A stretch of 64,000 nt of DNA. It comes from Tenacibaculum larymnensis (GTDB lineage: Bacteria; Bacteroidota; Bacteroidia; Flavobacteriales; Flavobacteriaceae). Location of the stretch: positions 62,001 to 126,000 of the forward strand of contig NZ_JAIWJY010000010.1 of the NCBI RefSeq assembly GCF_028829235.1, written 5' to 3'. Position 1 is the first letter of the stretch; each line of letters opens with the position of its first letter. The notes under the pieces are model-generated. The model saw only the letters and a program-made list of their open reading frames with translations, was not told where the DNA came from and made no database searches. Below are positions 52,571 through 64,000 of this stretch, piece after piece. A program made the position numbers and the translations under genes.

Positions 52571-54115
52571 ATGGAGGTATTTAAGTCTATAGCCTTATGT
52601 TTTTCTGGAGGAGGATATAGAGCAGCTTGTTTTTCTTTAGGAACATTATCGTTATTAGAAAAAGTAGGATTGTTAGAAAATGTAAAAGCAATTTCTACAG
52701 TTTCTGGAGGGACAATTACTGGGGTTAAGTACGCACAATCACAGATTGAAGGAAAAGATTTTCAAGTTTTTTTTGATGAATACTATAAATGGTTAGCAAA
52801 AGATGAGTTGACAAGTAATGCATTGAGTCATTTAAGATGGCAGTTAATTTGGAATCAGCCAGAGAATAAGCACAAGAGAAAGAATCCGATTAATGCCTTT
52901 GCTATAGAATATAATAAATTAACAAATCAAGCAACTCTAGGGCAAGTTCAAGATGTAATAAGTCAAGGTGAAACACACTTAGAAAGAGTCATTTTTAATG
53001 CTACGGATTTTGATAGTACACATCAGTTTAGATTTCAAAATATTAAAGGGAATCAAAAAAGGTTTGGAAACGGAAAGGTACATAGCAAATATAAAGGAGT
53101 AATAGATGATATAAAGTTAGGAGATGTAATCGCAGCTTCCACAGCTTTTCCAGGAGGATTTGAGCCGATGGGGTTTCCGTATGACTTTACTCCAAAGCAC
53201 AATGATTTAGAAGAAGTAGGTTTGATGGATGGAGGCATTGTAGATAATCAAGGAGCTTCTGTTTTTGTATCAGAAGCACAGAATCAATGTGAAGGGAAAC
53301 CCGAACGTCATGATTTATATTTCTTGTGCGATGTTTCTTCACCATATCCTGGAGAAGGCTTTAAGTTTGCTTCCGATTCATGGTTTAGTAAATATGTGTC
53401 TTATGTATCTAGTGCTTTTACTTTATTGTTTGTGTTGGTAGCTACTGTATTTTTTGGAGTGCAAAAAATGATGGTTTGGTATACGATAAGCGTTGTAATA
53501 TTAGCTTTTTTGGTATTTATTCATTTTTTGTTTTTTTCATTATCCAAATTAATGCAAAATGAAACAGGTGTAGATCAAAGATTGTATTTACCACCAAGAA
53601 GAGTAGGTTTTTATATACTTAACAGAGCGAAGTCTTTGGTTCGCATGGCAAGTGTGGTTTTTCTTAAAAATGATAGAAGACAACATGCAAACGCTATTTA
53701 TAGTACTTTTCCTAATAAAATAATCACATCTACAGTATATGAACTACGATGTAAAGACGCTTCAGGGAATCAAACAACTCGACCAGAGAATGAGAGAGGT
53801 TGGGAAGAGATAATGAAGCATACAGGAGAAATAAGTGAAGCAATTATTAAAAATTCACATAGAAGTACATCATTTGGTACTACTTTATGGTTTACGAAAA
53901 AAGATAAAGCAAATGATATGTTAAACACTGTTATTGCTTGTGGAGAGTATACAGCCTGTTATAACTTGTTGTCATATCTAATTATTCAATACGGAGATAG
54001 AGCTACTGAAATGCCTATTTTTAAAGAATTACTATCTCTATGGAAGAAATTTCAAGAAAACCCCAAGTTTTTAGTAGAAGAACGTCAAGGGAAAATAAAG
54101 ACCATGAACAAATAA
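52571..54115 (+). CDS. patatin-like phospholipase with internal membrane helices
   Basis: A 514-residue protein with a patatin catalytic domain. The oxyanion-hole motif GGGYRA is at 13-18, the nucleophile Ser45 is in STVSGGT, and the catalytic Asp220 is in DGG. The nucleophile elbow is TVSGG instead of the classic GxSxG. Two or three hydrophobic helices (about 275-325) split the protein, so it is likely membrane-bound. The domain past them (about 330-514) is of unknown type. It should cleave acyl groups from lipids. The terminator of the gene overlaps its final codons. Two small genes of unknown function converge on it. Confidence 0.87.
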   Translation: MEVFKSIALCFSGGGYRAACFSLGTLSLLEKVGLLENVKAISTVSGGTITGVKYAQSQIEGKDFQVFFDEYYKWLAKDELTSNALSHLRWQLIWNQPENKHKRKNPINAFAIEYNKLTNQATLGQVQDVISQGETHLERVIFNATDFDSTHQFRFQNIKGNQKRFGNGKVHSKYKGVIDDIKLGDVIAASTAFPGGFEPMGFPYDFTPKHNDLEEVGLMDGGIVDNQGASVFVSEAQNQCEGKPERHDLYFLCDVSSPYPGEGFKFASDSWFSKYVSYVSSAFTLLFVLVATVFFGVQKMMVWYTISVVILAFLVFIHFLFFSLSKLMQNETGVDQRLYLPPRRVGFYILNRAKSLVRMASVVFLKNDRRQHANAIYSTFPNKIITSTVYELRCKDASGNQTTRPENERGWEEIMKHTGEISEAIIKNSHRSTSFGTTLWFTKKDKANDMLNTVIACGEYTACYNLLSYLIIQYGDRATEMPIFKELLSLWKKFQENPKFLVEERQGKIKTMNK

Positions 54116-54132
54116 ATATTCATGGTCTTTTT
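54097..54132. terminator. terminator overlapping the end of the patatin gene
   Basis: AAAGACCATGAA / TTCATGGTCTTT hairpin with a T run. The left arm encodes the last codons of the patatin gene and the stop lies in the loop. It can also act on the converging strand. Confidence 0.85.
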
Positions 54133-54136
54133 ATGT

Positions 54137-54460
54137 TTAAAAAACTAAGACTTTTATCGTGTCAACAATAGTTTTAACAACTTTGTTTTTAAAATGCCCT
54201 AAACTTATTTTCGAAATACCAGCAGTTTGTAAGGCTTTCATTTTAAATAAATCTTTCTGACTTTCTACCAGCCATTCAAAATCTTCTAGGTTAAGCTTTC
54301 CCTGTGCTAGTAAAGAAGTCCACCTTTTTAGTTTGTCTTTTGATTCATTTAAAAATAGTTCAATGTCCTTTTTTGACTCTTTTGAAAATTCACTATACTT
54401 ATCATTGAATAAAAAAGTTAATGAATTTTTTAATTCTTGTAATATTTTTTCGAAATCCAT
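54137..54460 (-). CDS. small helical protein of unknown function
   Basis: A 107-residue, Lys/Glu/Leu-rich, almost fully helical protein without signal peptide. The C-terminal part (TAGISKISLGHFKNKVVKTIVDTIKVLVF) is amphipathic and hydrophobic, so it may touch membranes. I do not recognise the family. It follows the lipoprotein gene by 6 nt on the same strand and converges with the patatin gene. The pair looks functionally linked, but nothing indicates a reaction. Confidence 0.6.
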   Translation of the reverse strand: MDFEKILQELKNSLTFLFNDKYSEFSKESKKDIELFLNESKDKLKRWTSLLAQGKLNLEDFEWLVESQKDLFKMKALQTAGISKISLGHFKNKVVKTIVDTIKVLVF

Positions 54461-54466
54461 AGCAGA

Positions 54467-54928
54467 TTAATTGTTTGAAAGAAGTTGTAGTAACTGATTT
54501 TTAGAAGTAGGTTCTTTTTTACTTTCATACTCAAGTAACAGATTAAGAGCTTCAGTTATTTGTCCTTTAGCTTCTGTTATAAAAAATGGAGAAAGTTTGC
54601 CTTTTTCTTTCCATCGTTTCAAAAAACCAGCAAGTAATTTTTTGTCTTTATCAGCTAATAATAACCACATTTTATAGGTTATTTCGTTGTTAGGTTTATA
54701 CTTTTCATATTCAACAATTTTAGTAATCTCATTTTGCAACTCTTCAATCTCTTTAATGTTGTCTTGATAAGAGTTTTCAGCTTTTTCTATGAGTTGGTTT
54801 GCATCTATTTTTATTTCAATAGTTTTTTGAAATGAGTATTGATCATAAGGAGCTGTTTTAAGAGAGCTGCAAGAAAGAAAAAAGGAGGTAATAAAAATTA
54901 AAATAAAGAAAAGTTTACTAGTTTTCAT
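54467..54928 (-). CDS. small lipoprotein of unknown function
   Basis: A 153-residue protein with a lipobox (SFFLSC, about Cys20, followed by SSLKT). The mature part is helical, with a likely coiled-coil (about 45-75; AENSYQDNIKEIEELQNEITKIVEY) and a Lys-rich C-terminal half. The residues after Cys are not acidic, so it probably stays on the inner face. It is the first gene of a two-gene unit with the 107-residue helical protein. I do not recognise the family. Confidence 0.65.
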   Translation of the reverse strand: MKTSKLFFILIFITSFFLSCSSLKTAPYDQYSFQKTIEIKIDANQLIEKAENSYQDNIKEIEELQNEITKIVEYEKYKPNNEITYKMWLLLADKDKKLLAGFLKRWKEKGKLSPFFITEAKGQITEALNLLLEYESKKEPTSKNQLLQLLSNN

Positions 54929-55043
54929 AGTTAGGTTATTTTTTTGTAGGTAAATTTAATGAATTTAATTTAAGTAAAAAAAGTAGAAAAAAGAAGTGTT
55001 TTTCAGGAACAACTACTTTAATATATAGTTATTAGTTGTTTTT

Positions 55044-55057
55044 ATGATAAAAGTCAT
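55044..55057. promoter_or_regulatory. CRP/FNR-like dyad upstream of stress operon
   Basis: Inverted repeat ATGA-N6-TCAT, with the TGA-N6-TCA geometry of CRP/FNR-family sites. Its centre is about 41 nt before the start predicted from TATCTTTG at 55080-55087, the position of class II activators. The expected -33 TTG is absent. Confidence 0.45.
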
Positions 55058-55071
55058 GAAAATCAACAAGT

Positions 55072-55087
55072 TATATTTGTATCTTTG
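55072..55087 (+). promoter_or_regulatory. tandem -7 elements of stress operon
   Basis: TATATTTG (55072-55079) and TATCTTTG (55080-55087) directly abut. Both match TAnnTTTG. The second predicts a start near 55091, 20 nt before the first ATG. Confidence 0.55.
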
Positions 55088-55110
55088 GGTGAGGTGTAAA
55101 TTAATAAGTT

Positions 55111-55497
55111 ATGGATGTATCAGTCTTTTTACTAAAGTTCTGGGGATGGTACTGTATTATTTTCTTCTTTGTACTAAGTTTTAATCCTAAAAGAGTAAAA
55201 CAAATAGTTGATAATTTACAGGATGCTCGGTTTTTAATTATTCTTTCATTGTTTGCAATTATAATAGGCTTACTTAATGTATTGGCTCATAATATATGGG
55301 AGGCGAATATTAAATTGTTAGTAACTCTATTTGGTTGGTTGGCTTTAATTAAAGGTGTTATCCTATTTACTTTTCCTAAGCAAACTATTAAGCTGCTAAA
55401 ACAAACCAACTTAAAGTTTATACAGGCCATATATGTGTTGTTATTTTTCTTAGGCTTGTTTTTGTTAAATGAAGCTTATGGTATGGTTCCTTTTTAA
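55111..55497 (+). CDS. four-helix membrane protein of unknown function
   Basis: A 128-residue protein with four predicted membrane helices (about 8-24, 41-60, 66-85 and 101-121) and short loops rich in Lys (KRVKQI, KQTIKLLKQ). I do not recognise the family with certainty. It is the first gene of the stress operon; the universal stress protein starts 16 nt after its stop. A sensing or anchoring role in the operon is only a guess. Confidence 0.65.
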   Translation: MDVSVFLLKFWGWYCIIFFFVLSFNPKRVKQIVDNLQDARFLIILSLFAIIIGLLNVLAHNIWEANIKLLVTLFGWLALIKGVILFTFPKQTIKLLKQTNLKFIQAIYVLLFFLGLFLLNEAYGMVPF

Positions 55498-55513
55498 CTG
55501 AATTTTAATCGAA

Positions 55514-56371
55514 ATGAAAAAAAAGATTTTACTACTAACCGATTTTTCTGAAGCATCATATAATGCAATCGCATATGCTTTAGAGCTTTTTAGAACTGAA
55601 AGATGTAGCTTTTATGTGTTAAATGTTTTTAAAACAACATATAATTTAATAGAGGATTTGGTTCCTCCTCAGCCAGGAGAGAAAGGGTACGATGAGCCAA
55701 AGAAAAAATCATTAGAAGGACTGAATAAAATATCAAAATTAATAGCGTCAAAAGAAGAAGGAAATCCTTTTCATGAGTTTGATTATATCTCTCTGGAAAA
55801 TAAATCACTATTGAGTGCAACTGAGGAAATAGTAGAGCAAAAAGATATAGAAATGGTTGTAATGGCAACGAAAGGATTAACTAATGATAGTAGTTCTGTA
55901 TTTGGTAGTAATGCAATACAGGTAATGGAGAAGATTCGTAATTGTCCTGTTTTAGTAGTACCAAAAAAAGCTAGGAAGCAAATACCCAAAGAAATTGTTT
56001 TTCCTACGAGTTACAGAACACATTATAAAAAAAGAGAATTAGAGTATTTAATAGATATAGTTGGAGCTTGTAATGCATCTTTAAGAGTATTACATATTAC
56101 TAATAATGGAGATATAGATGAAAATCAAAAAGAACACAAAGAAATGTTGAATGAATATTTTGAAGGGTTAAAATTTTCATTTCATACATTATCTTGTGTA
56201 ACAGTGTCTACAGCAATAAAATGTTTTGTAGAAAGTAGAGAAAGCGATATAGTAGCTTTTATAAATAAAAAGCACGCATTTTTTGATACTATATTTTCTA
56301 AACCATTAGTAAAGGAAATAGGGTATAAGTTAAAGGTACCTGTGTTGGTGTTACATGATTTAAGAAACTAA
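55514..56371 (+). CDS. universal stress protein, two UspA domains
   Basis: A 285-residue protein of two tandem UspA domains (about 1-150 and 160-283). The first starts with KKILLLTDFSEASYNAIAYA and ends with FGSNAIQVMEKIRNCPVLVVP. The ATP-loop glycines (GxxGx9GS) are partly degenerate. The second domain lacks them and ends in IGYKLKVPVLVLHD. Double Usp proteins accumulate on starvation or hypoxia and often act as nucleotide-binding signalling proteins. It lies 11 nt before the eRF1-like gene, in the same operon. Confidence 0.88.
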   Translation: MKKKILLLTDFSEASYNAIAYALELFRTERCSFYVLNVFKTTYNLIEDLVPPQPGEKGYDEPKKKSLEGLNKISKLIASKEEGNPFHEFDYISLENKSLLSATEEIVEQKDIEMVVMATKGLTNDSSSVFGSNAIQVMEKIRNCPVLVVPKKARKQIPKEIVFPTSYRTHYKKRELEYLIDIVGACNASLRVLHITNNGDIDENQKEHKEMLNEYFEGLKFSFHTLSCVTVSTAIKCFVESRESDIVAFINKKHAFFDTIFSKPLVKEIGYKLKVPVLVLHDLRN

Positions 56372-56382
56372 AAAACAAAACA

Positions 56383-56793
56383 ATGAAAAACATAGGAGTT
56401 TGGTTAGATAAAGAGAAAGCTCTTGTTGTAACCATTGAAAATGGAACAGAAAACATGAAAACGATACCTTCTAATATAGAAACGTTTCGTATTCACGGAG
56501 GCTCTGGAACTCGATTTAAGGGAGGTCCGCAAGATGTGGTTCAGGATAGTAAGTATTTAGAAAGAGAAAAACATCAAACGAAAAGATATTTTAATGAGCT
56601 AGCAGAAGAGGTTAACAATGCTGATTCATTAGCCATTTTTGGTCCTGCTGAAACTTTTGAAAAATTTAAGAAAGAGTTGGAAAGCTCTCATAAAGAATTA
56701 AATGCAAAGGTTAAAAAAGTGCAAAGAGTTGATAGTATGACAGACAATCAAGTAAAGGCTTTAGTTAGAGATTTCTTTAAAAATGGAAACTAG
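56383..56793 (+). CDS. one-domain eRF1/Pelota middle-domain-like protein
   Basis: A 136-residue protein. The order of elements fits the middle domain of archaeal/eukaryotic release factors and their bacterial relatives: strand KNIGVWLDKEKALVVTIENG, a glycine-rich loop HGGSGTRFKGGPQD with GGPQ at 47-50 where eRF1 has GGQ, a helix (EREKHQTKRYFNELAEEV), strand ADSLAIFGPAETFEKF, then VKKVQRVDSMTDNQVKALVRDFF. Small stand-alone relatives are annotated as translational-machinery proteins, and Balon-like relatives hibernate ribosomes. A ribosome-binding stress role is inferred, not shown. It overlaps the nuclease gene by 11 nt. Confidence 0.65.
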   Translation: MKNIGVWLDKEKALVVTIENGTENMKTIPSNIETFRIHGGSGTRFKGGPQDVVQDSKYLEREKHQTKRYFNELAEEVNNADSLAIFGPAETFEKFKKELESSHKELNAKVKKVQRVDSMTDNQVKALVRDFFKNGN

Positions 56794-57631
56794 TCCGAAT
56801 AAAATAACAATAGTAAAAGCTTCTGGTGAAGTTGTACAGTTTTCTTTAGCTAAATTAAAAAAGTCACTTAAAAGAACTGGGGCAGATGATACTTTAGTGT
56901 CAGAAATTATAGAAATAGTTCAAGGTGAATTGTACGAAGGAATAACAACTAAAGAAATTTATAATAGAGCCTTTGCTTTACTAAAGAAAAAAAAGAATGT
57001 ATTTGCTTCAAAGTATAAACTTAAAAAAGCAATATACGAACTTGGACCTACAGGTTATCCCTTTGAATATTTTATAGCAGCAGTTTTAAAATACTCAGGG
57101 TATAAGGTAAAAGTAGGAGAAATTTTGCAAGGTGAGTGTGTACAACACGAGGTTGATGTGTTAGCTCATAAGAATAATGAAACTACTGTTGTAGAGTGTA
57201 AGTTTCATAGTGAACAAGGCTTTGTGTGTAATGTAAAAGTTCCTTTATATATACATTCCAGATATAATGATGTTAGAAATTATTGGAATACTTTTAATAA
57301 GCATAAAACAACGCTAACTCAAGGTTGGGTTGTAACAAATACTCGATTTACAGAAGACGCTACACAATATGGTAATTGTGCAGGGTTGTATCTGTTAAGT
57401 TGGGACTACCCGAAAGAAAATAGCCTAAAAGATATAATTGATAGGCTAGGATTATATCCAATAACAGTTTCTACACTCTTAACTAAAAGGGAGAAACAGT
57501 TTTTATTGAATAGAGATGTAGTGCTTTGTAGAGAGTTGATAAAAGATAGCTTTTATTTAGATCATTTAGGTGTTTCAGATACGAGAAAAACTAGAATTTT
57601 ATCTGAAATACAACAATTGTGTAGTGCTTAA
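56783..57631 (+). CDS. ATP-cone fused to Mrr-type restriction nuclease
   Basis: A 282-residue two-domain protein. Residues about 6-90 match the ATP-cone of ribonucleotide reductases and NrdR (ITIVKASGEVVQFSLAKLKKSLKRTGADD, then ITTKEIYNRAFALLKKK). Residues about 88-205 match an Mrr-like PD-(D/E)xK nuclease: GPTGYPFEYFIAAVLKYSGY with Glu95, HEVDVLAHKNNETTVVECKF with Asp125, Glu138 and Lys140. It may therefore cut DNA in response to nucleotide state. No methyltransferase lies nearby, so it is not a standard restriction system. It overlaps the eRF1-like gene by 11 nt and is followed by a beta-CASP RNase gene after 12 nt. Confidence 0.82.
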   Translation: METSPNKITIVKASGEVVQFSLAKLKKSLKRTGADDTLVSEIIEIVQGELYEGITTKEIYNRAFALLKKKKNVFASKYKLKKAIYELGPTGYPFEYFIAAVLKYSGYKVKVGEILQGECVQHEVDVLAHKNNETTVVECKFHSEQGFVCNVKVPLYIHSRYNDVRNYWNTFNKHKTTLTQGWVVTNTRFTEDATQYGNCAGLYLLSWDYPKENSLKDIIDRLGLYPITVSTLLTKREKQFLLNRDVVLCRELIKDSFYLDHLGVSDTRKTRILSEIQQLCSA

Positions 57632-57643
57632 AAAGGAAGTAAT

Positions 57644-59017
57644 ATGCTAAATTTTGCAAAAGTTCATTTTTTAGGGGCAGCAGGTACAGTTACAGGTTCA
57701 AAGTTTTTGATTGAAGCTTGCGGAAAGCAAATTATGATTGATTGCGGCATGTTTCAAGGTCTGAAAGAGCTTAGAGAATTAAACTGGGCGGAACTTCCTA
57801 TTGATGTTGAAAAAATAGATGTTGTGTTATTAACTCATGGACATTTAGATCATGTGGGGTTTTTACCACGGTTATATAAGCAAGGGTTTAGAGGTAGAAT
57901 TATAGGAACAGCTCCAACATTGGCTATTGCAGGAATTATTTTAAGAGATAGTGCTAAAATCCATGAAGAAGAAGCGCAAAAAGCTGCCGAAGAAAATTAT
58001 AGTAAACATAATCCAGTATTACCTTTTTACACAGTTACTGAAGCAGAAAACACCATGAGCTTATTTCAAGTTGAAGAAGAAGGGAAATGGGTTTCTTTTT
58101 CTGAAAAAATCTCTTACAGATTTCAATACAATGGGCATATTATAGGGGCTACTTTTATAGAATTAAATATCAATGAAAAAAGATTTGTGTTTTCTGGAGA
58201 TGTAGGAAGAGTGAATGATTATCTGCTAGAAGCTCCCAAAAAACCAGTATGGGCAGATTATCTTTTTATAGAGAGTACCTATGGTCATAAGTTACATCCA
58301 AAAGAAAATATAGAAGAAATTTTATCAGCGTTAATCAGAGAAACAATTGTAAATAAAGGAAATTTAATCATTCCTAGTTTTGCTGTTGAGCGATTACAAA
58401 TGCTAATATATGTTTTATGGAAGCTGTATAAGAAAAATAAAATACCAAGCATACCAATTTTTGTTGATAGCCCAATGGGAAATAATGTTTTGGAGGTTTT
58501 TAAAAGGTATCCACAATGGCATAAACTACCCATGAATGAATACGAAGCAATGTGTAACCATATAAATATTATTGAATCTTATAGAGAAACATGGGAAACT
58601 ATTGATGACCCTAGGTCGAAAATAATAATTGCTGGAAGTGGAATGGTAACAGGAGGTAGAGTTTTAACTTATTTACAACAACTAATAGATGAACCAACAA
58701 CAACAGTTTTATTAGTAGGGTATCAAGCAGAAGGAACAAGAGGAAGGCAGTTGCAAGAAGGATGTCATGAAATAAAGTTTTATGGAAGGTACTTTCCTGT
58801 TAAAGCAAGAGTAGAGAGCATAGAAAGTTTATCTGCACATGCAGACCAAGGAGACTTGTTAAATTGGTTAAGTGATATTAAAAACATACCTGAAGAAGTG
58901 TTTCTTATACATGGTGAACAAACGGCTTTAGATGCTTTTAGATTGAAAATACAAAGAGAAAACAATTGGAATGTATGTATTCCAAAACTACATGCTATAA
59001 AAGAGTTAATGATATAG
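57644..59017 (+). CDS. beta-CASP metallo-beta-lactamase RNase
   Basis: A 457-residue protein of the CPSF73/beta-CASP group. The zinc site is complete: THGHLDHVG (65-70 region), His164 and Asp186 (FSGD). The beta-CASP insertion follows (FIESTYGHKLHP, IPSFAVERLQML), and the RNA-specificity end has SLSAHADQGDLLNWL and a final LIHGEQ. These enzymes process or degrade RNA endo- or exonucleolytically. It is in the stress operon between the ATP-cone nuclease and the helical protein. Its co-expression with the release-factor-like protein suggests coupled RNA turnover and ribosome control. Confidence 0.92.
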   Translation: MLNFAKVHFLGAAGTVTGSKFLIEACGKQIMIDCGMFQGLKELRELNWAELPIDVEKIDVVLLTHGHLDHVGFLPRLYKQGFRGRIIGTAPTLAIAGIILRDSAKIHEEEAQKAAEENYSKHNPVLPFYTVTEAENTMSLFQVEEEGKWVSFSEKISYRFQYNGHIIGATFIELNINEKRFVFSGDVGRVNDYLLEAPKKPVWADYLFIESTYGHKLHPKENIEEILSALIRETIVNKGNLIIPSFAVERLQMLIYVLWKLYKKNKIPSIPIFVDSPMGNNVLEVFKRYPQWHKLPMNEYEAMCNHINIIESYRETWETIDDPRSKIIIAGSGMVTGGRVLTYLQQLIDEPTTTVLLVGYQAEGTRGRQLQEGCHEIKFYGRYFPVKARVESIESLSAHADQGDLLNWLSDIKNIPEEVFLIHGEQTALDAFRLKIQRENNWNVCIPKLHAIKELMI

Positions 59018-59041
59018 AAGTTTAACCTAAAAACTAACTCG

Positions 59042-59482
59042 ATGAAAACAACAAAAACACACTTAAAATATGTAGAATGGTTAAGTGCAGAAGATATGCA
59101 TTTAACGTCAAAACAATGGTTGTCTGAACTTTCATTTTTAAAAGATGAACAACTCTTTTTTGAGGACTTAATACGAAAATATATTTTTGAGCTTATAGCA
59201 CCAGACCAATTTAAAAAAACAACTAAAATAGTAGAACTGTTGAGTAGTTCAAGAAAAAAAACGGAAGAGTTAATCAAACTCGTTGAAGCTCATGAAAGAG
59301 GTTTAGAAGTAATGGTAGATGGAGTTGATGAAGTAGTAGAGGAAGAAGTGTACAAGAATGAACATAGAAGGTTAATAGTAATGTTTAGTGAATTTTTAAA
59401 AGAATATAAAAATTTAAAACAAACGCTTTTTACTACCGTAAAAAAGATAGCCAAGTCAGAAAAAAAAGGATTAAATCAATAA
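59042..59482 (+). CDS. helical protein of unknown function in stress operon
   Basis: A 146-residue, soluble, almost entirely helical protein. It reads like a four-helix bundle with long charged helices (WLSAEDMHLTSKQWLSELSFLKDE, KIVELLSSSRKKTEELIKLVEAHERG, NEHRRLIVMFSEFLKEYKNLKQTLFTTVKKI). I do not recognise the family. Its size and pattern recall ferritin/hemerythrin-like or RaiA-unrelated helical bundles, but the metal-ligand spacing is not convincing. It lies 24 nt after the beta-CASP gene and is the last gene of the operon, followed by a perfect terminator. Confidence 0.6.
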   Translation: MKTTKTHLKYVEWLSAEDMHLTSKQWLSELSFLKDEQLFFEDLIRKYIFELIAPDQFKKTTKIVELLSSSRKKTEELIKLVEAHERGLEVMVDGVDEVVEEEVYKNEHRRLIVMFSEFLKEYKNLKQTLFTTVKKIAKSEKKGLNQ

Positions 59483-59487
59483 TAAAT

Positions 59488-59520
59488 AAAAACGGAGTTC
59501 AATATTGAACTCCGTTTTTA
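59488..59520. terminator. bidirectional terminator between converging stress genes
   Basis: Perfect 16-bp palindrome AAAAACGGAGTTCAAT / ATTGAACTCCGTTTTT with A and T runs for both directions, between the + operon end and the - strand universal stress gene. Confidence 0.92.
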
Positions 59521-59529
59521 TTTTATAAT

Positions 59530-60393
59530 TTAAGCGATGTAACGCTTTACTACCCATAAAGGGACATGTAAATCATGAGTAAACAACTCTTCTGTAACAC
59601 TTCCTACTAAAAGAGAAGTAAAGTTGTTATGACCTTTGTCTGCAACAAACAAAATATCAGTTTTGTCTTTTTCAGCAATTGCCCTTATTTTTTCAGGGAT
59701 GCTATCTTCTCCTGCTGAAGCTTTAATAGTCTCTATATTTAATGCTTTTGTCTTGTTAAGTAGCTTTTCAAATTGTAAATCAACATGTTTTTCTACTTTT
59801 TCACGAGCCTTATCTACTTTTATGTAAGGGAAAAATAGCTGAGGAATTTTAAAAACATTTAATGCTTTTAAAATAGACTTTTTCTTATTGTTAATAGATG
59901 AAGCTGTATTAAAAGCTTTAAGAGAAGCTGAAGAAAAGTCGGTTGCAACCATTAGGTTTTCTGGATTAAGGTTTGCTTCCTTAGGAATAGAAAGAATATT
60001 GCATTTTGCCATTCGTAATAATTTTCCTGAAACAGAACCAGAACCTTTATAGGTGTTTTTATTGCCTAAAATAATTAAGTCAGCATGGTATTTATTGGCA
60101 ACATAACTAATTAAACTTTCTGTGTAAGCATCGTCAGAAACTAATAATTCGTAATTACAATCACTATCAAAGTGCTTGCTAATACTATTATCTAACTCTT
60201 CCTCAATAATGTCTTCAATACTTATGTTTTCTAACTGTTCAGAAAATAAATTACTTATTTCATACTTTTTTACATTATGAATAAAATATACATTTTCTGT
60301 TTCATGGTTTTTAGCGAGCATGCTACAGTACTTAATAAGTGTAACATCTAGTTCAGAAAGGTCTAAGGCTACTAGTATATTTTTAATTTTCAT
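59530..60393 (-). CDS. universal stress protein, two UspA domains
   Basis: A 287-residue double UspA protein. The first domain (about 1-138) starts with KNILVALDLSELDVTLIKYC and ends with GSGSVSGKLLRMAKCNILSIP. The second domain (about 145-285) starts with ENLMVATDFSSASLKAF and holds FVADKGHNNFTSLLVGSVTEELFTHDLHVPLWVV, where the ATP-loop is better preserved than in the copy at 55514-56371. It is the last gene of the porin-BCCT unit (3 nt after BCCT) and converges on the stress operon. The two Usp genes have distinct sequences, so they are not a recent duplication. Confidence 0.88.
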   Translation of the reverse strand: MKIKNILVALDLSELDVTLIKYCSMLAKNHETENVYFIHNVKKYEISNLFSEQLENISIEDIIEEELDNSISKHFDSDCNYELLVSDDAYTESLISYVANKYHADLIILGNKNTYKGSGSVSGKLLRMAKCNILSIPKEANLNPENLMVATDFSSASLKAFNTASSINNKKKSILKALNVFKIPQLFFPYIKVDKAREKVEKHVDLQFEKLLNKTKALNIETIKASAGEDSIPEKIRAIAEKDKTDILFVADKGHNNFTSLLVGSVTEELFTHDLHVPLWVVKRYIA

Positions 60394-60396
60394 AAT

Positions 60397-62013
60397 TTAA
60401 GATTTTTGTTTTTTCGAATCTATTAATCTTTTTACAGTTTCCTGGTATTCTTCCTTTTCTTTTTGGTTTAAGCGTTTAAGGTATTCCTTATAATCTTCCC
60501 TTAATCCTTTAAAAAGAGAGTAACACATTAATAACAAAAGTAAGGTAAAAGGAAGACCTGTAGCAATAGAAGCTGTTTGGAGAGCTTTTAAACCTCCGCC
60601 TAATAATAATACAGCGGCTACAGCACCTTCTGCAAGAGCCCAAAATATTCTTTGACCTACAGGAGCGTCAATTTTACCACCAGAAGTTAAACTGTCAACT
60701 ACCAAAGAACCAGAATCTGATGAGGTAACAAAGAAACTAGCAATAAGTATAATAGCGATAATATTTAAAGCCATTGAAAATGGGAAGTCTTCTAAAAACA
60801 CAAAAAGAGCGGTAGCAACATTATCATTCACCCCCTCTGCAATAGTAGGGTCTCCTCCTAAAATTTCATGTAACGAAGTTGCTCCAAAAGCCGTAATCCA
60901 AAATAAGGTAATTAATGTAGGAACAATCAATACTCCAAGAATAAATTCTCTAATAGTTCTTCCTTTAGATACACGAGCTATAAACATACCTACGAAAGGA
61001 GACCAAGCAATCCACCATCCCCAGTAAAAAATAGTCCATGAGTTTTGCCATTCCGTTCCAGTATAGGCTTCAGCCCATGTAGAAAGGTTAATTAAGTCGT
61101 TTGCATAACTACCAGTGTTTTGTACAAATGATTTTAAGATGAAAATAGTAGGACCTAAAATTACTACAGCAAGTAATAAAAGTACAGCGATACGCATATT
61201 CATTTCACTTAAAAACTTTACTCCTTTGTCAACTCCTGAAACTACTGAAATGGTGGCTATTAATGTAATTCCGACAATTAGCCATATTTGTAATGAAATA
61301 CCTGAATCTAAACCAAAAACATGCTCTAAACCAGCAGCAACTTGTTTAACACCTAGTCCAAGAGAAGTTGCTAGTCCAAAAACAGTAGCCAAAACAGCAA
61401 AAATATCTATAACATCACCAATTCTACCATAAATTCTATCTCCTAAGAAAGGGTAGAATACAGAGCGAATTGTTAATGGAAGTCCTCTAGAGTATGTAAA
61501 ATAAGCTAAAGACAAACCAACCAAAGCATAAATTCCCCAAGCATGTAGCCCCCAGTGTAAAAAAGTAACATTCATGGCTTCTTTAGCAGCAGCAGCGGTA
61601 TTAGGGTCAGCTAGAGGAGGTGAAGATAAATGATAAACAGGTTCAGCAATACTCCAAAAAAGTAACCCAATACCCATACCAGCACTAAAGAGCATAGAAA
61701 ACCAAGAGGTAGTTGAAAATTCAGGTTTTGCTTTAGCCCCACCAATACGTAAAGTTCCATATTTACTAAAAGCTAAATAAAGCATAAAGGCAACAAAGAT
61801 GTTAACGGCTAAGATAAATAACCAGCCAGTTTTGTTGGCTATAAAACTCTGCGCTGTATCAAAATATGATTGGGCTCTTTCTTTAAAAAGTAAAGTTAAA
61901 GCTACACTTAGTATTATTACTATAGAAGAAGTAAAGAATACAGGACCGTTAACCTCGAGTCCAAAGATTGATTTCCGCTCGTCACTTCTAATTATTTTTT
62001 TTGCTTTTTTCAT
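60397..62013 (-). CDS. BCCT-family transporter (betaine/carnitine/choline type)
   Basis: A 538-residue integral membrane protein with twelve predicted helices. The family signature WTIFYWGWWIAWSPFVGMFIARVSKGRTIREF is in helix 8. The N-terminal FTSSIVIILSVALTLLF and the aromatic-box Trp residues are also visible. BCCT carriers import quaternary ammonium compounds driven by Na+ or H+ for osmotic protection. The substrate cannot be fixed from sequence alone. The C-terminus is Lys/Glu-rich and long, as in osmoregulated BCCT proteins. It lies between the porin gene (19-nt gap) and the Usp gene. Confidence 0.93.
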   Translation of the reverse strand: MKKAKKIIRSDERKSIFGLEVNGPVFFTSSIVIILSVALTLLFKERAQSYFDTAQSFIANKTGWLFILAVNIFVAFMLYLAFSKYGTLRIGGAKAKPEFSTTSWFSMLFSAGMGIGLLFWSIAEPVYHLSSPPLADPNTAAAAKEAMNVTFLHWGLHAWGIYALVGLSLAYFTYSRGLPLTIRSVFYPFLGDRIYGRIGDVIDIFAVLATVFGLATSLGLGVKQVAAGLEHVFGLDSGISLQIWLIVGITLIATISVVSGVDKGVKFLSEMNMRIAVLLLLAVVILGPTIFILKSFVQNTGSYANDLINLSTWAEAYTGTEWQNSWTIFYWGWWIAWSPFVGMFIARVSKGRTIREFILGVLIVPTLITLFWITAFGATSLHEILGGDPTIAEGVNDNVATALFVFLEDFPFSMALNIIAIILIASFFVTSSDSGSLVVDSLTSGGKIDAPVGQRIFWALAEGAVAAVLLLGGGLKALQTASIATGLPFTLLLLLMCYSLFKGLREDYKEYLKRLNQKEKEEYQETVKRLIDSKKQKS

Positions 62014-62032
62014 GTGTTAATGTTTTATGCTA

Positions 62033-63190
62033 TTAAAAATAGTATCCGATATTTATGTTAAATCTCATGTCCCAATCAGCATTAGGTGTTCCGTTTGCTA
62101 AAGCATTTGTCCATACTGGTCCTAACCAAGGATGATCTTTTCCTGCTGCAAAATCTATATAAGTATAAACATTACCAGCAGTTACTAAGAAACCAAATAC
62201 ATTCATTAAACTGTCTTCAAAATCTACAGCTGCTTTATCCATGTAACCAAAGTCGTTATAAACTTGTATACTAGAAATAGGTTTCCATTTTACAGGGAAG
62301 GTATAAGCAGCGCCTAAAGTATATGTTGTTGCTTCTGTTGCAGTAAGGTAAGGAGCTCCATAAGCAGTTAAGGCTATAAGATCGTTATAAGTAGTATTCT
62401 TTGTATTGTATTTGTAGGTAGATACTTGTGCTTTAGCATCAAAGTTTTTTGCGTTTAGTTGATAGTGTAAGGCAAAAGCATGATGGCTAGATGTATCTTC
62501 AGTATCTAAATTATAAAGACCTCCATATTGTACAGAAAATCCTATTTTATGTTGAATACTTTTGTTACCGAAGTGATAATTTACCTTACCATTTAGTTGG
62601 TTTGTTTCCTTGTATCTTAAATCTAGATTCCCATCCCCATCAATGTCTATTGATGCAACATCGTATGAGTATCGGCTATCAGAAACATCAGAGTTGCTTC
62701 CAAAATTAAGTTCTTCAGCATTTTTAAAAAAAGCTAAGGCGTATTCCCATTTTTTTCCTTTATGGGTAAACTTTACCCCCATATCATGGTCATCTTCTAG
62801 TCCTAGGTAATAATTAATACCAAAAAACCAACTATGAGAATTGTATTGAGTAATACCAAAAGGCACTTGTGTTAATCCTAATTGAATGTTGTCTTTTTCG
62901 TTAAAGTCATACCCTAACCAGCCTTGTTTAAGCATGCCACCTCCAAAACTTTGTGAGTAAAAGCGATATTCAGCATTTAGCTTTATTCCTTTGTATTTTG
63001 CTTTAGCATTAATTCTAAAGACGTCGAAACCGAAATCGCCTCCACGTTTTTTTTGACCGTCTTTCCAAGAAGATAGGTTGTAGTTAAATCGAAGTGCTCC
63101 GCCAATTTTAACCTCAGGCTTTTCTTGTGAAAACATAACTGTAACAAAAGAAAAAGCAACTAAGACTAGGCTTTTTTTTGTGAAATTCAT
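62033..63190 (-). CDS. OprO/OprP-like outer-membrane porin
   Basis: A 385-residue protein with a signal peptide (LVLVAFSFVTVMFSQ) and a chain of amphipathic beta-strands ending in MRFNINIGYYF. The terminal Phe and alternating aromatic residues are typical for outer-membrane barrels. The pattern (GGALRFNYNLSSWKDGQKKRGGDFGFDVFRINAKAKYKGIKLNAEYRFY) resembles phosphate-selective-porin-like proteins of Bacteroidota. It is first in the porin-BCCT-Usp unit, which suggests that it feeds the BCCT substrate through the outer membrane. A leader of about 200 nt precedes it. Confidence 0.83.
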   Translation of the reverse strand: MNFTKKSLVLVAFSFVTVMFSQEKPEVKIGGALRFNYNLSSWKDGQKKRGGDFGFDVFRINAKAKYKGIKLNAEYRFYSQSFGGGMLKQGWLGYDFNEKDNIQLGLTQVPFGITQYNSHSWFFGINYYLGLEDDHDMGVKFTHKGKKWEYALAFFKNAEELNFGSNSDVSDSRYSYDVASIDIDGDGNLDLRYKETNQLNGKVNYHFGNKSIQHKIGFSVQYGGLYNLDTEDTSSHHAFALHYQLNAKNFDAKAQVSTYKYNTKNTTYNDLIALTAYGAPYLTATEATTYTLGAAYTFPVKWKPISSIQVYNDFGYMDKAAVDFEDSLMNVFGFLVTAGNVYTYIDFAAGKDHPWLGPVWTNALANGTPNADWDMRFNINIGYYF

Positions 63191-63396
63191 TGTTGATATT
63201 AATAAGTGTGAAGAAAGTGTACTCGTAAAAGCACATTTTCAAGTGAAAGGATAAGAGAAAACTCTTTCTAGCTTAAAAAAATGGTAATTATTTTGAAGGA
63301 GGAATGAATTTATCTGATTGATTCCTAAAAACTAAAAAGTTAAAACTGAATACTCGTTTATTCTTTTTGTCTTTGAGTTTTTTTATCATAAGACTG

Positions 63397-63426
63397 CAAA
63401 GTTACTGATTAAAATGGGGTTTTCAA
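63397..63426 (-). promoter_or_regulatory. promoter of porin-BCCT-Usp unit
   Basis: - strand TTG (63426-63424), a 19-nt spacer, then TAACTTTG (63404-63397), a full consensus match. The predicted start is near 63392. Confidence 0.65.
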
Positions 63427-63445
63427 AAAAAGAGAGTATTGGAGT

Positions 63446-63460
63446 GTTAAAATTTTTAAC
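63446..63460. promoter_or_regulatory. perfect dyad upstream of porin promoter
   Basis: GTTAAAA-T-TTTTAAC inverted repeat, centred about 61 nt upstream of the predicted start. This is a classic activator position, but it could also be a chance AT-rich palindrome. Confidence 0.35.
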
Positions 63461-63511
63461 TAAAATAAGAATTAGTGGTTCTCATACTTAATCCTATTTT
63501 TAGAATATGAT

Positions 63512-63555
63512 AAAAAAACAAAAGTAGTATTAATACTACTTTTGTTTTTTTTTTT
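63512..63555 (-). terminator. terminator of hsp20
   Basis: A long perfect palindrome whose core is AGTAGTATTAATACTACT, extended by ACAAA/TTTGT, with A and T runs of more than seven. It directly abuts and partly overlaps the Hsp20 stop codon region. Confidence 0.9.
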
Positions 63556-64000
63556 ATTGGATTTCAATAATTTTTTTAGGTTTTTGCTTTGTTCCTTCTT
63601 TTTTATGAAGGTTTAGTTTTAAAATACCATTTTCGTAACTAGCCTTAATATCTTGATCTGTGTTGATAGATTCAGGTAAGCTTAAAGATCTTTTAAATGA
63701 ATTGTAACTAAACTCTTTACGTGTAAAGTCTTCTTCTTTTTCTTCAACCTCATGTTTTTTCTCTCCGCAAACGTTAAGTACATTGTTATCAATAGTTATT
63801 TCAAAGTCTTTTTTTGAAAATCCTGGAGCGGCAAACTCGATTTCGAAGTTGTCATCCTGTTCCTTAACATTCATAGCGGGCATTAAACTATCTTCTTCAA
63901 AGAAGTTAGTGTTAAAAAAATCATCAATGTCTAGAAAGTTTCTTAAACCTCCGTTAGTCCATAAAGGTAACCCTCTTCTTTTTTCGTTAAATTTAATAAG
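63554..64000 (-). CDS. Hsp20/alpha-crystallin small heat-shock protein, 5'-truncated
   Basis: 148 residues of a small heat-shock protein are present. The frame stays open to the window end (LIKFNEKRRGLPLWTNGGLRN... is the typical N-terminus), so only a few N-terminal residues are missing. I therefore reject the internal ATG at 63883 as start. The alpha-crystallin domain (NFEIEFAAPGFSKKDFEITI, FSYNSFKRSLSLPES, ASYENGILKLNLHKK) is complete, with the Ile-x-Ile-like IIEIQ tail. It holds unfolding proteins in the cytoplasm. It stands next to the Usp/BCCT and stress operons. Confidence 0.93.
   Translation of the reverse strand, partial: LIKFNEKRRGLPLWTNGGLRNFLDIDDFFNTNFFEEDSLMPAMNVKEQDDNFEIEFAAPGFSKKDFEITIDNNVLNVCGEKKHEVEEKEEDFTRKEFSYNSFKRSLSLPESINTDQDIKASYENGILKLNLHKKEGTKQKPKKIIEIQ

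Follow-up and report, generated by a model that had tools for sequence, protein, structure and literature searches.

Stand-alone proteins made of an aeRF1 domain are a known kind in bacteria. Burroughs and Aravind reported three stand-alone baeRF-1 families in 2019, and several baeRF-1 families were linked with HPF (PMC6514570). According to the available text of that paper, baeRFs without flanking domains usually lack the loop Gln, loop length is unconstrained where the Gln is absent, and the absence of Gln together with loop divergence was read as lost catalysis. The same text describes VLRF-1 factors with GGxSQ or GxuQ instead of GGQ, and Dom34 without the catalytic Gln and with an Sm-like N domain (PMC6514570). 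Balon, which lacks GGQ, has its genes in stress operons alongside those for Hsp20 and RaiA, and the available text of the Balon study states that matches shorter than 300 aa were dropped, 806 sequences from one search and 1,422 from another (PMC10901736). As far as these two texts go, the kind of protein described below is already known, both from the stand-alone baeRF domains and from the short homologues set aside in the Balon work. Two further entries with related-sounding names occur in the available Bradyrhizobium microoxic expression tables: a 'Translational machinery protein' (bll4412) and a 'Host attachment protein' (bll4645), the latter numbered beside the universal stress protein (Usp) bll4644 (PMC6515984).

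We analyzed a 64,000-nucleotide stretch of Tenacibaculum larymnensis DNA (the window), in which a gene encoding a single eRF1-like domain lies within a compact run of genes:

55111–55497, + strand: 128-aa hydrophobic protein, presumed operon start, found in 22 of 80 loci
55514–56371, + strand: universal stress protein (Usp), 285 aa, PF00582 at 60.3 bits
56383–56793, + strand: stand-alone eRF1 middle-domain-like protein, 136 aa, ATG-to-TAG ORF
56494–56532, + strand: its loop HGGSGTRFKGGPQ, residues 38–50, with G39 kept in 92, G40 in 88 and Q50 in 90 of 96 members
56783–57631, + strand: ATP-cone and Mrr-type (restriction-endonuclease fold) protein, 282 aa, PF04471 and PF03477
57644–59017, + strand: beta-CASP RNase resembling TTHA0252, 457 aa, PF10996 and PF07521
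59042–59482, + strand: three-helix protein (ORF146), 146 aa, model pLDDT 85.7 with long helices
59484–59523, no strand assigned: symmetric terminator-like stem of 18 pairs between convergent genes, taken as the operon end

The structure of the 136-aa protein was modeled with AlphaFold2 (96 sequences in; pLDDT 81.4, pTM 0.71). In the model, strands at residues 2–8, 12–19 and 22–29 are followed by a loop (30–48) and a helix (49–77, DSSP helix from 49), then by a strand (82–87), helices, a strand (110–115) and a final helix (121–134); loop 30–48 is the least certain part (block means 53–66). A Foldseek search against PDB returned eRF1/aRF1, Pelota or Balon for 34 of 34 chains at E ≤ 0.001, with general RNase H folds ranking below this group. 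VIA aligned the model with residues 144–276 of human eRF1 (Z 12.9, 122 aligned, rmsd 3.1), Pelota 3oby (Z 12.7, 101 aligned, rmsd 2.3) and Rv2629/Balon (Z 11.4, 118 aligned, rmsd 2.8), the top chain outside the aeRF1 superfamily being YqgF 7w89 (Z 9.5, 97 aligned, rmsd 2.7). The predicted topology is that of the eRF1/Pelota middle domain, ahead of other RNase H folds. A preliminary description of this DNA had proposed an eRF1/Pelota-like domain, encoded without the codon-reading N domain, in which a strand-loop-helix arrangement places a Gly-rich loop at the eRF1 GGQ site. These proposals were borne out: eRF1, Pelota and Balon head the Foldseek and VIA results, the matched range of 1–136 spans the whole ORF with neither an N nor a C domain, and GGPQ lies at the modeled loop/helix boundary.

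Sequence support for kinship with the eRF1 group is weak but convergent with the fold. Identity to eRF1-group chains was 8–17% in the VIA rows, and hmmsearch with the family profile against PDB gave archaeal Pelota 3j15 as the top match (E = 0.0031). The PF03464 (eRF1_2) model matched 13 of 96 members at E ≤ 0.1 (best E 4.1e-4), and the baeRF10, baeRF5 and baeRF2 models matched 8, 6 and 3; single HMM matches at this level are no proof, because the unrelated-looking Arb2 model also matched 31 of 96 members (best E 4.1e-5). The family stayed under every Pfam or NCBIfam cut-off where tested: member L089 scored 20.9 bits with PF03464 (curated cut-off 27.1), and the T. larymnensis protein scored 14.2 bits with baeRF_family5 (cut-off 27). 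No match was found in its own genome to PF03464 up to E = 10, to the Pfam baeRF models PF18854 and PF18846, or to PF18826, and phmmer searches of the single 136-aa sequence against PDB and NCBIfam gave nothing useful. Aligned by hhalign with 11 Bacteroidota baeRF10 domains, a set that omitted L169 (one of 12 over-cut-off places) and four baeRF5 loci, the family reached a probability of 79 over 61 columns, with the loop outside the alignment.

To examine the distribution of the protein, genomes were searched for relatives, which were encoded in 80 of 395 genomes in a phylum-level set and 108 of 397 in a family-level set; this spread marks the ORF as a genuine gene, one that belongs to a Bacteroidota family of proteins. 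The closest relatives were in Tenacibaculum, with 95% identity in T. discolor, and many of the phylum matches came from a single family (f18, genus g59), which we take to be Chlorobium-like. A tree resolved a Flavobacteriaceae-centered group with GPQ, an f18 group with VAQ (support 98/93) and divergent or short-loop members; a true PQ was present in 85 tree members, L101 and L102 carrying PQ elsewhere in the sequence. No phage relative was matched, and the single plasmid match was a Nostoc record at 31%. In its own 3.66-Mb genome, where the window occupies C2:62001–126000, a family profile search found a single copy of the gene. The same genome encodes two long RF-1-domain ORFs, taken as RF1 and RF2, and extra RF-1-domain ORFs at C34:221462–221710 and C23:20366–20725 (open frames of 233 and 151 aa).

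We then examined the gene neighborhood. Relatives were encoded in 159 of 217 pattern-matched genomic stretches, 80 of which were kept as loci; these were chosen as best matches, so the set is mostly Flavobacteriaceae, and several end at contig edges. Usp was present in 76 of the 80, mostly immediately upstream of the eRF1-like gene, ORF146 in 63, the ATP-cone/Mrr protein in 56, the beta-CASP protein in 55, Hsp20 in 47, and BCCT, OMP and a second Usp in 4 each. Clustering of neighbors brought out a further ORF, about 221 aa long, in 59 loci. The window has its Hsp20 gene outside the operon (63554–63883, − strand). Successive intergenic gaps over 55111–59482 are 16, 11, −11, 12 and 24 nt, placing the eRF1-like gene 11 nt from Usp and in an 11-nt overlap with the ATP-cone/Mrr gene. 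The 128-aa hydrophobic protein had no Pfam match up to E = 1, and ORF146, duplicated in a number of loci, has no Pfam family. An Rfam search of 54000–64000 gave no match, and promoter-like sites were no commoner than in shuffled sequence. A response regulator/CRP-type DNA-binding fusion, which 22 of the 80 loci carry close to the operon (for example L051:361–1398), is a candidate regulator. Eight of the loci also have a short HPF-type gene close by (L037, L042, L059, L017, L033, L026, L018 and L011); the one copy checked, L037:731–1030, matched PF02482 (Ribosomal_S30AE) at 53 bits. This conserved gene order, with Usp and often Hsp20, suggests that marine flavobacteria share a conserved stress operon, presumably co-transcribed and expressed under stress, and the comparison with Balon made in the preliminary description holds to the extent that the conserved neighbor genes point to a similar stress setting. 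The surroundings of the gene are varied in f18 and other distant genomes, where no Usp, Hsp20 or HPF gene stood beside it among the matches listed.

The two genes that follow the eRF1-like gene in the window likely encode nucleases. The ATP-cone/Mrr protein matched PF04471 and PF03477 at 29.4 and 27.2 bits, each above its cut-off, and resembles AF1548 (1y88, E = 1.1e-29); D125, E138, C139 and K140 are each conserved in 97% or more of 52 sequences, and an ECK or EAK motif is present in 51 of 51. The beta-CASP protein matched the TTHA0252 structure 2dkf (E = 2.3e-67), and HxHxDH was found in all 54 homologues examined. The two genes (56783–59017) co-occur as a pair with the active-site motifs kept in both, and are possibly an energy-sensing, nucleic-acid-cutting pair. 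The eRF1-like protein might be an RNase H-fold RNA-binding adaptor for this pair, directed at mRNA or rRNA outside the ribosome, a reading we hold to be unlikely but worth weighing. The order of the three genes in most loci and the overlap in the window would fit such an adaptor, as would the general RNase H folds that Foldseek also lists, though below the eRF1 group. Against it, the eRF1-like gene is retained where the nuclease genes were not found (24 and 25 of the 80, counting loci cut at contig ends), such loci often still have Usp and Hsp20, and eRF1-group matches outrank those to YqgF/RuvC in VIA.

The loop was compared across 110 extracted members, 96 of which were aligned after 14, mostly near-duplicates, had been removed by hand. 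Among the 110, KGGPQ occurred in 65, KGGPE in 1, VAQ in 16 and other types in 8, while KWGPQ, RWGPQ, PWGPQ, KWAPQ and KGSPQ together accounted for 20; the 96 rows have GPQ in 69 and VAQ in 16, with exact GGQ absent. The residue preceding Gln50 is Pro in 71 and Ala in 19, R61 is kept in 89, and W7, D9, G87 and P88 alone are invariant. In the first 71 alignment rows, residues 38–65 form the lowest-entropy 28-residue stretch of the protein (mean entropy 0.43 vs 1.52 elsewhere). Between S30 and the Gln column the length is 19 in 66 rows, 20 in 26, 12 in 3 and 18 in 1 (of the first 71 rows, 65 have 19 and 6 have 20). The conserved unit is the Gly pair 39–40 with (Pro/Ala)49–Gln50, set in a loop whose length hardly varies. 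The GGPQ proposed earlier as a replacement of GGQ is present here, but as an exact motif it is not what is conserved; likewise, the extra Pro is there as Pro49, but instead of interrupting GGQ it may simply begin the helix. The further proposal that this Pro would disrupt release chemistry is not borne out by the conserved Gln, the near-fixed loop length and the GGxSQ or GxuQ of VLRF-1 (available text of PMC6514570).

Stand-alone baeRF-1 proteins share with this family an aeRF1 RNase H-fold domain alone, in bacteria, but are reported usually to lack the Gln and, where it is absent, a constrained loop length, whereas here 90 of 96 members retain Gln and 92 of 96 have a length of 19 or 20; judged by the marks used in the available text of PMC6514570, this family looks constrained. 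With eRF1/aRF1 domain 2 (PF03464) the protein shares its fold and, joining strand 3 to a long helix, a Gly-rich loop that ends in Gln, but it has (G/W)GPQ in place of GGQ and is missing the codon-reading and GTPase-binding domains. Pelota/Dom34 is alike in fold and gave the best profile match, while Dom34 differs in its missing catalytic Gln and its Sm-like N domain (available text of PMC6514570). The bVLRF1/Vms1 clade (PF18826) likewise has a Gln without a preceding Gly-Gly; the two Bacteroidota bVLRF1 sequences examined have KSQ well before the helix, with the Gln further from it than that of eRF1.

The register of the loop was examined by ungapped alignment of five eRF1/aRF1 post-GGQ helix fragments, whose Gln fell best at column 53 in 5 of 5 (mean score 5.2, vs −10.9 at column 50). 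The helix profile was fitted as well by only 13 and 15 of 2000 shuffles for two aRF1 fragments, a result that also counts as sequence support for kinship with the eRF1 group, while the eukaryotic eRF1 fragments fit weakly (102–396 of 2000 shuffles as good). The best fit, weak for the eukaryotic fragments, would put Gln50 on the N-terminal side of the GGQ glutamine, three residues away. A match of Gln50 to the GGQ Gln, made by eye from the Q50–E60/H64 spacing, was not supported by this fit, and we therefore claim no positional equivalence for the two. The Gln–helix distance alone does not settle activity, because the bVLRF1 Gln lies further from the helix.

A putative active stand-alone peptidyl-tRNA hydrolase is a rather improbable reading: Gln50 of (G/V)(P/A)Q would place water at the peptidyl-transferase center, by chemistry as with eRF1 GGQ and VLRF-1 GxuQ, and stalled chains would, with similarly low probability, be rescued under stress. 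The Gln after Pro or Ala, the near-fixed loop length and R61 speak for it, these being the marks used for possibly catalytic families in the available text of PMC6514570, and the two bVLRF1 sequences indicate that the Gln–helix distance can exceed that of eRF1. It is countered by the register fit at column 53, by the Pro that precedes Gln where GxuQ has a tiny residue, and by the four RF-1-domain ORFs already in the genome. Loop losses weigh in the same direction: L053 has PE in place of PQ, and the long-branched L087 (L155 / L087) has lost both GG and PQ, yet its operon is intact, with Usp, ATP-cone/Mrr, beta-CASP, Hsp20 and ORF146 all present. More doubtful is the composite in which a single-domain aeRF1-type hydrolase with a (P/A)Q motif, together with the ATP-sensing Mrr-fold nuclease and the CPSF73/TTHA0252-like RNase, forms a flavobacterial stress operon in which the removal of stalled chains is linked to RNA decay. 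That the protein is an RNase H-fold nuclease or NTPase in its own right is very improbable: RuvX, YqgF and RuvC do appear lower down in the VIA results and the invariant D9 ends strand 1, but the four invariant residues include no second acid, and the D-x3-A pattern of the strand 1 region occurs in eRF1 too.

Taken with the fold, sequence, loop and gene context and the Balon analogue, we consider that the eRF1-like protein probably acts on ribosomes during stress. We put at about even chances the fuller reading of a stress-operon factor, leaning non-catalytic, that inserts a GG...GPQ loop into the active center of the large subunit. Such a baeRF-like protein, pared down to the aeRF1-superfamily middle domain with its RNase H fold, would be produced in cells that are stressed or short of energy, together with Usp, the nuclease partners and, in many relatives, Hsp20. 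The protein would enter the large subunit from the A-site side and position the loop at the peptidyl-transferase center, where idle or stalled ribosomes may be blocked or cleared without codon reading. Balon (Rv2629, Msmeg1130) is alike in its middle-domain fold and, as far as the available text of PMC10901736 describes, in its stress-operon setting, matched here by Hsp20 and HPF genes near relatives of the eRF1-like gene, but it has three domains where the GPQ-loop protein has one. The low identity, the uncertain loop model and the varied gene surroundings in distant genomes count against the stress-factor reading, as does a Gln kept more strictly than a mere plug would require.

Searches of the literature, with supplements outside their scope, returned nothing on this family or on stand-alone aeRF1 proteins beyond PMC6514570, the available text of which describes the kind. 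As far as these searches show, a Gln-keeping stand-alone family claimed by no Pfam model is new, as is an operon joining an eRF1-like gene with two likely nucleases. With one domain, a single genomic copy, a highly conserved Gln-keeping loop and an operon that names candidate partners, the GPQ-loop protein is a clean test case, which would tell if a lone middle domain can find the ribosome and if peptide release is still within reach of a GPQ loop. If the composite reading were true, the operon of hydrolase and nucleases would amount to a bacterial equivalent of no-go decay, assembled from parts of archaeal type.
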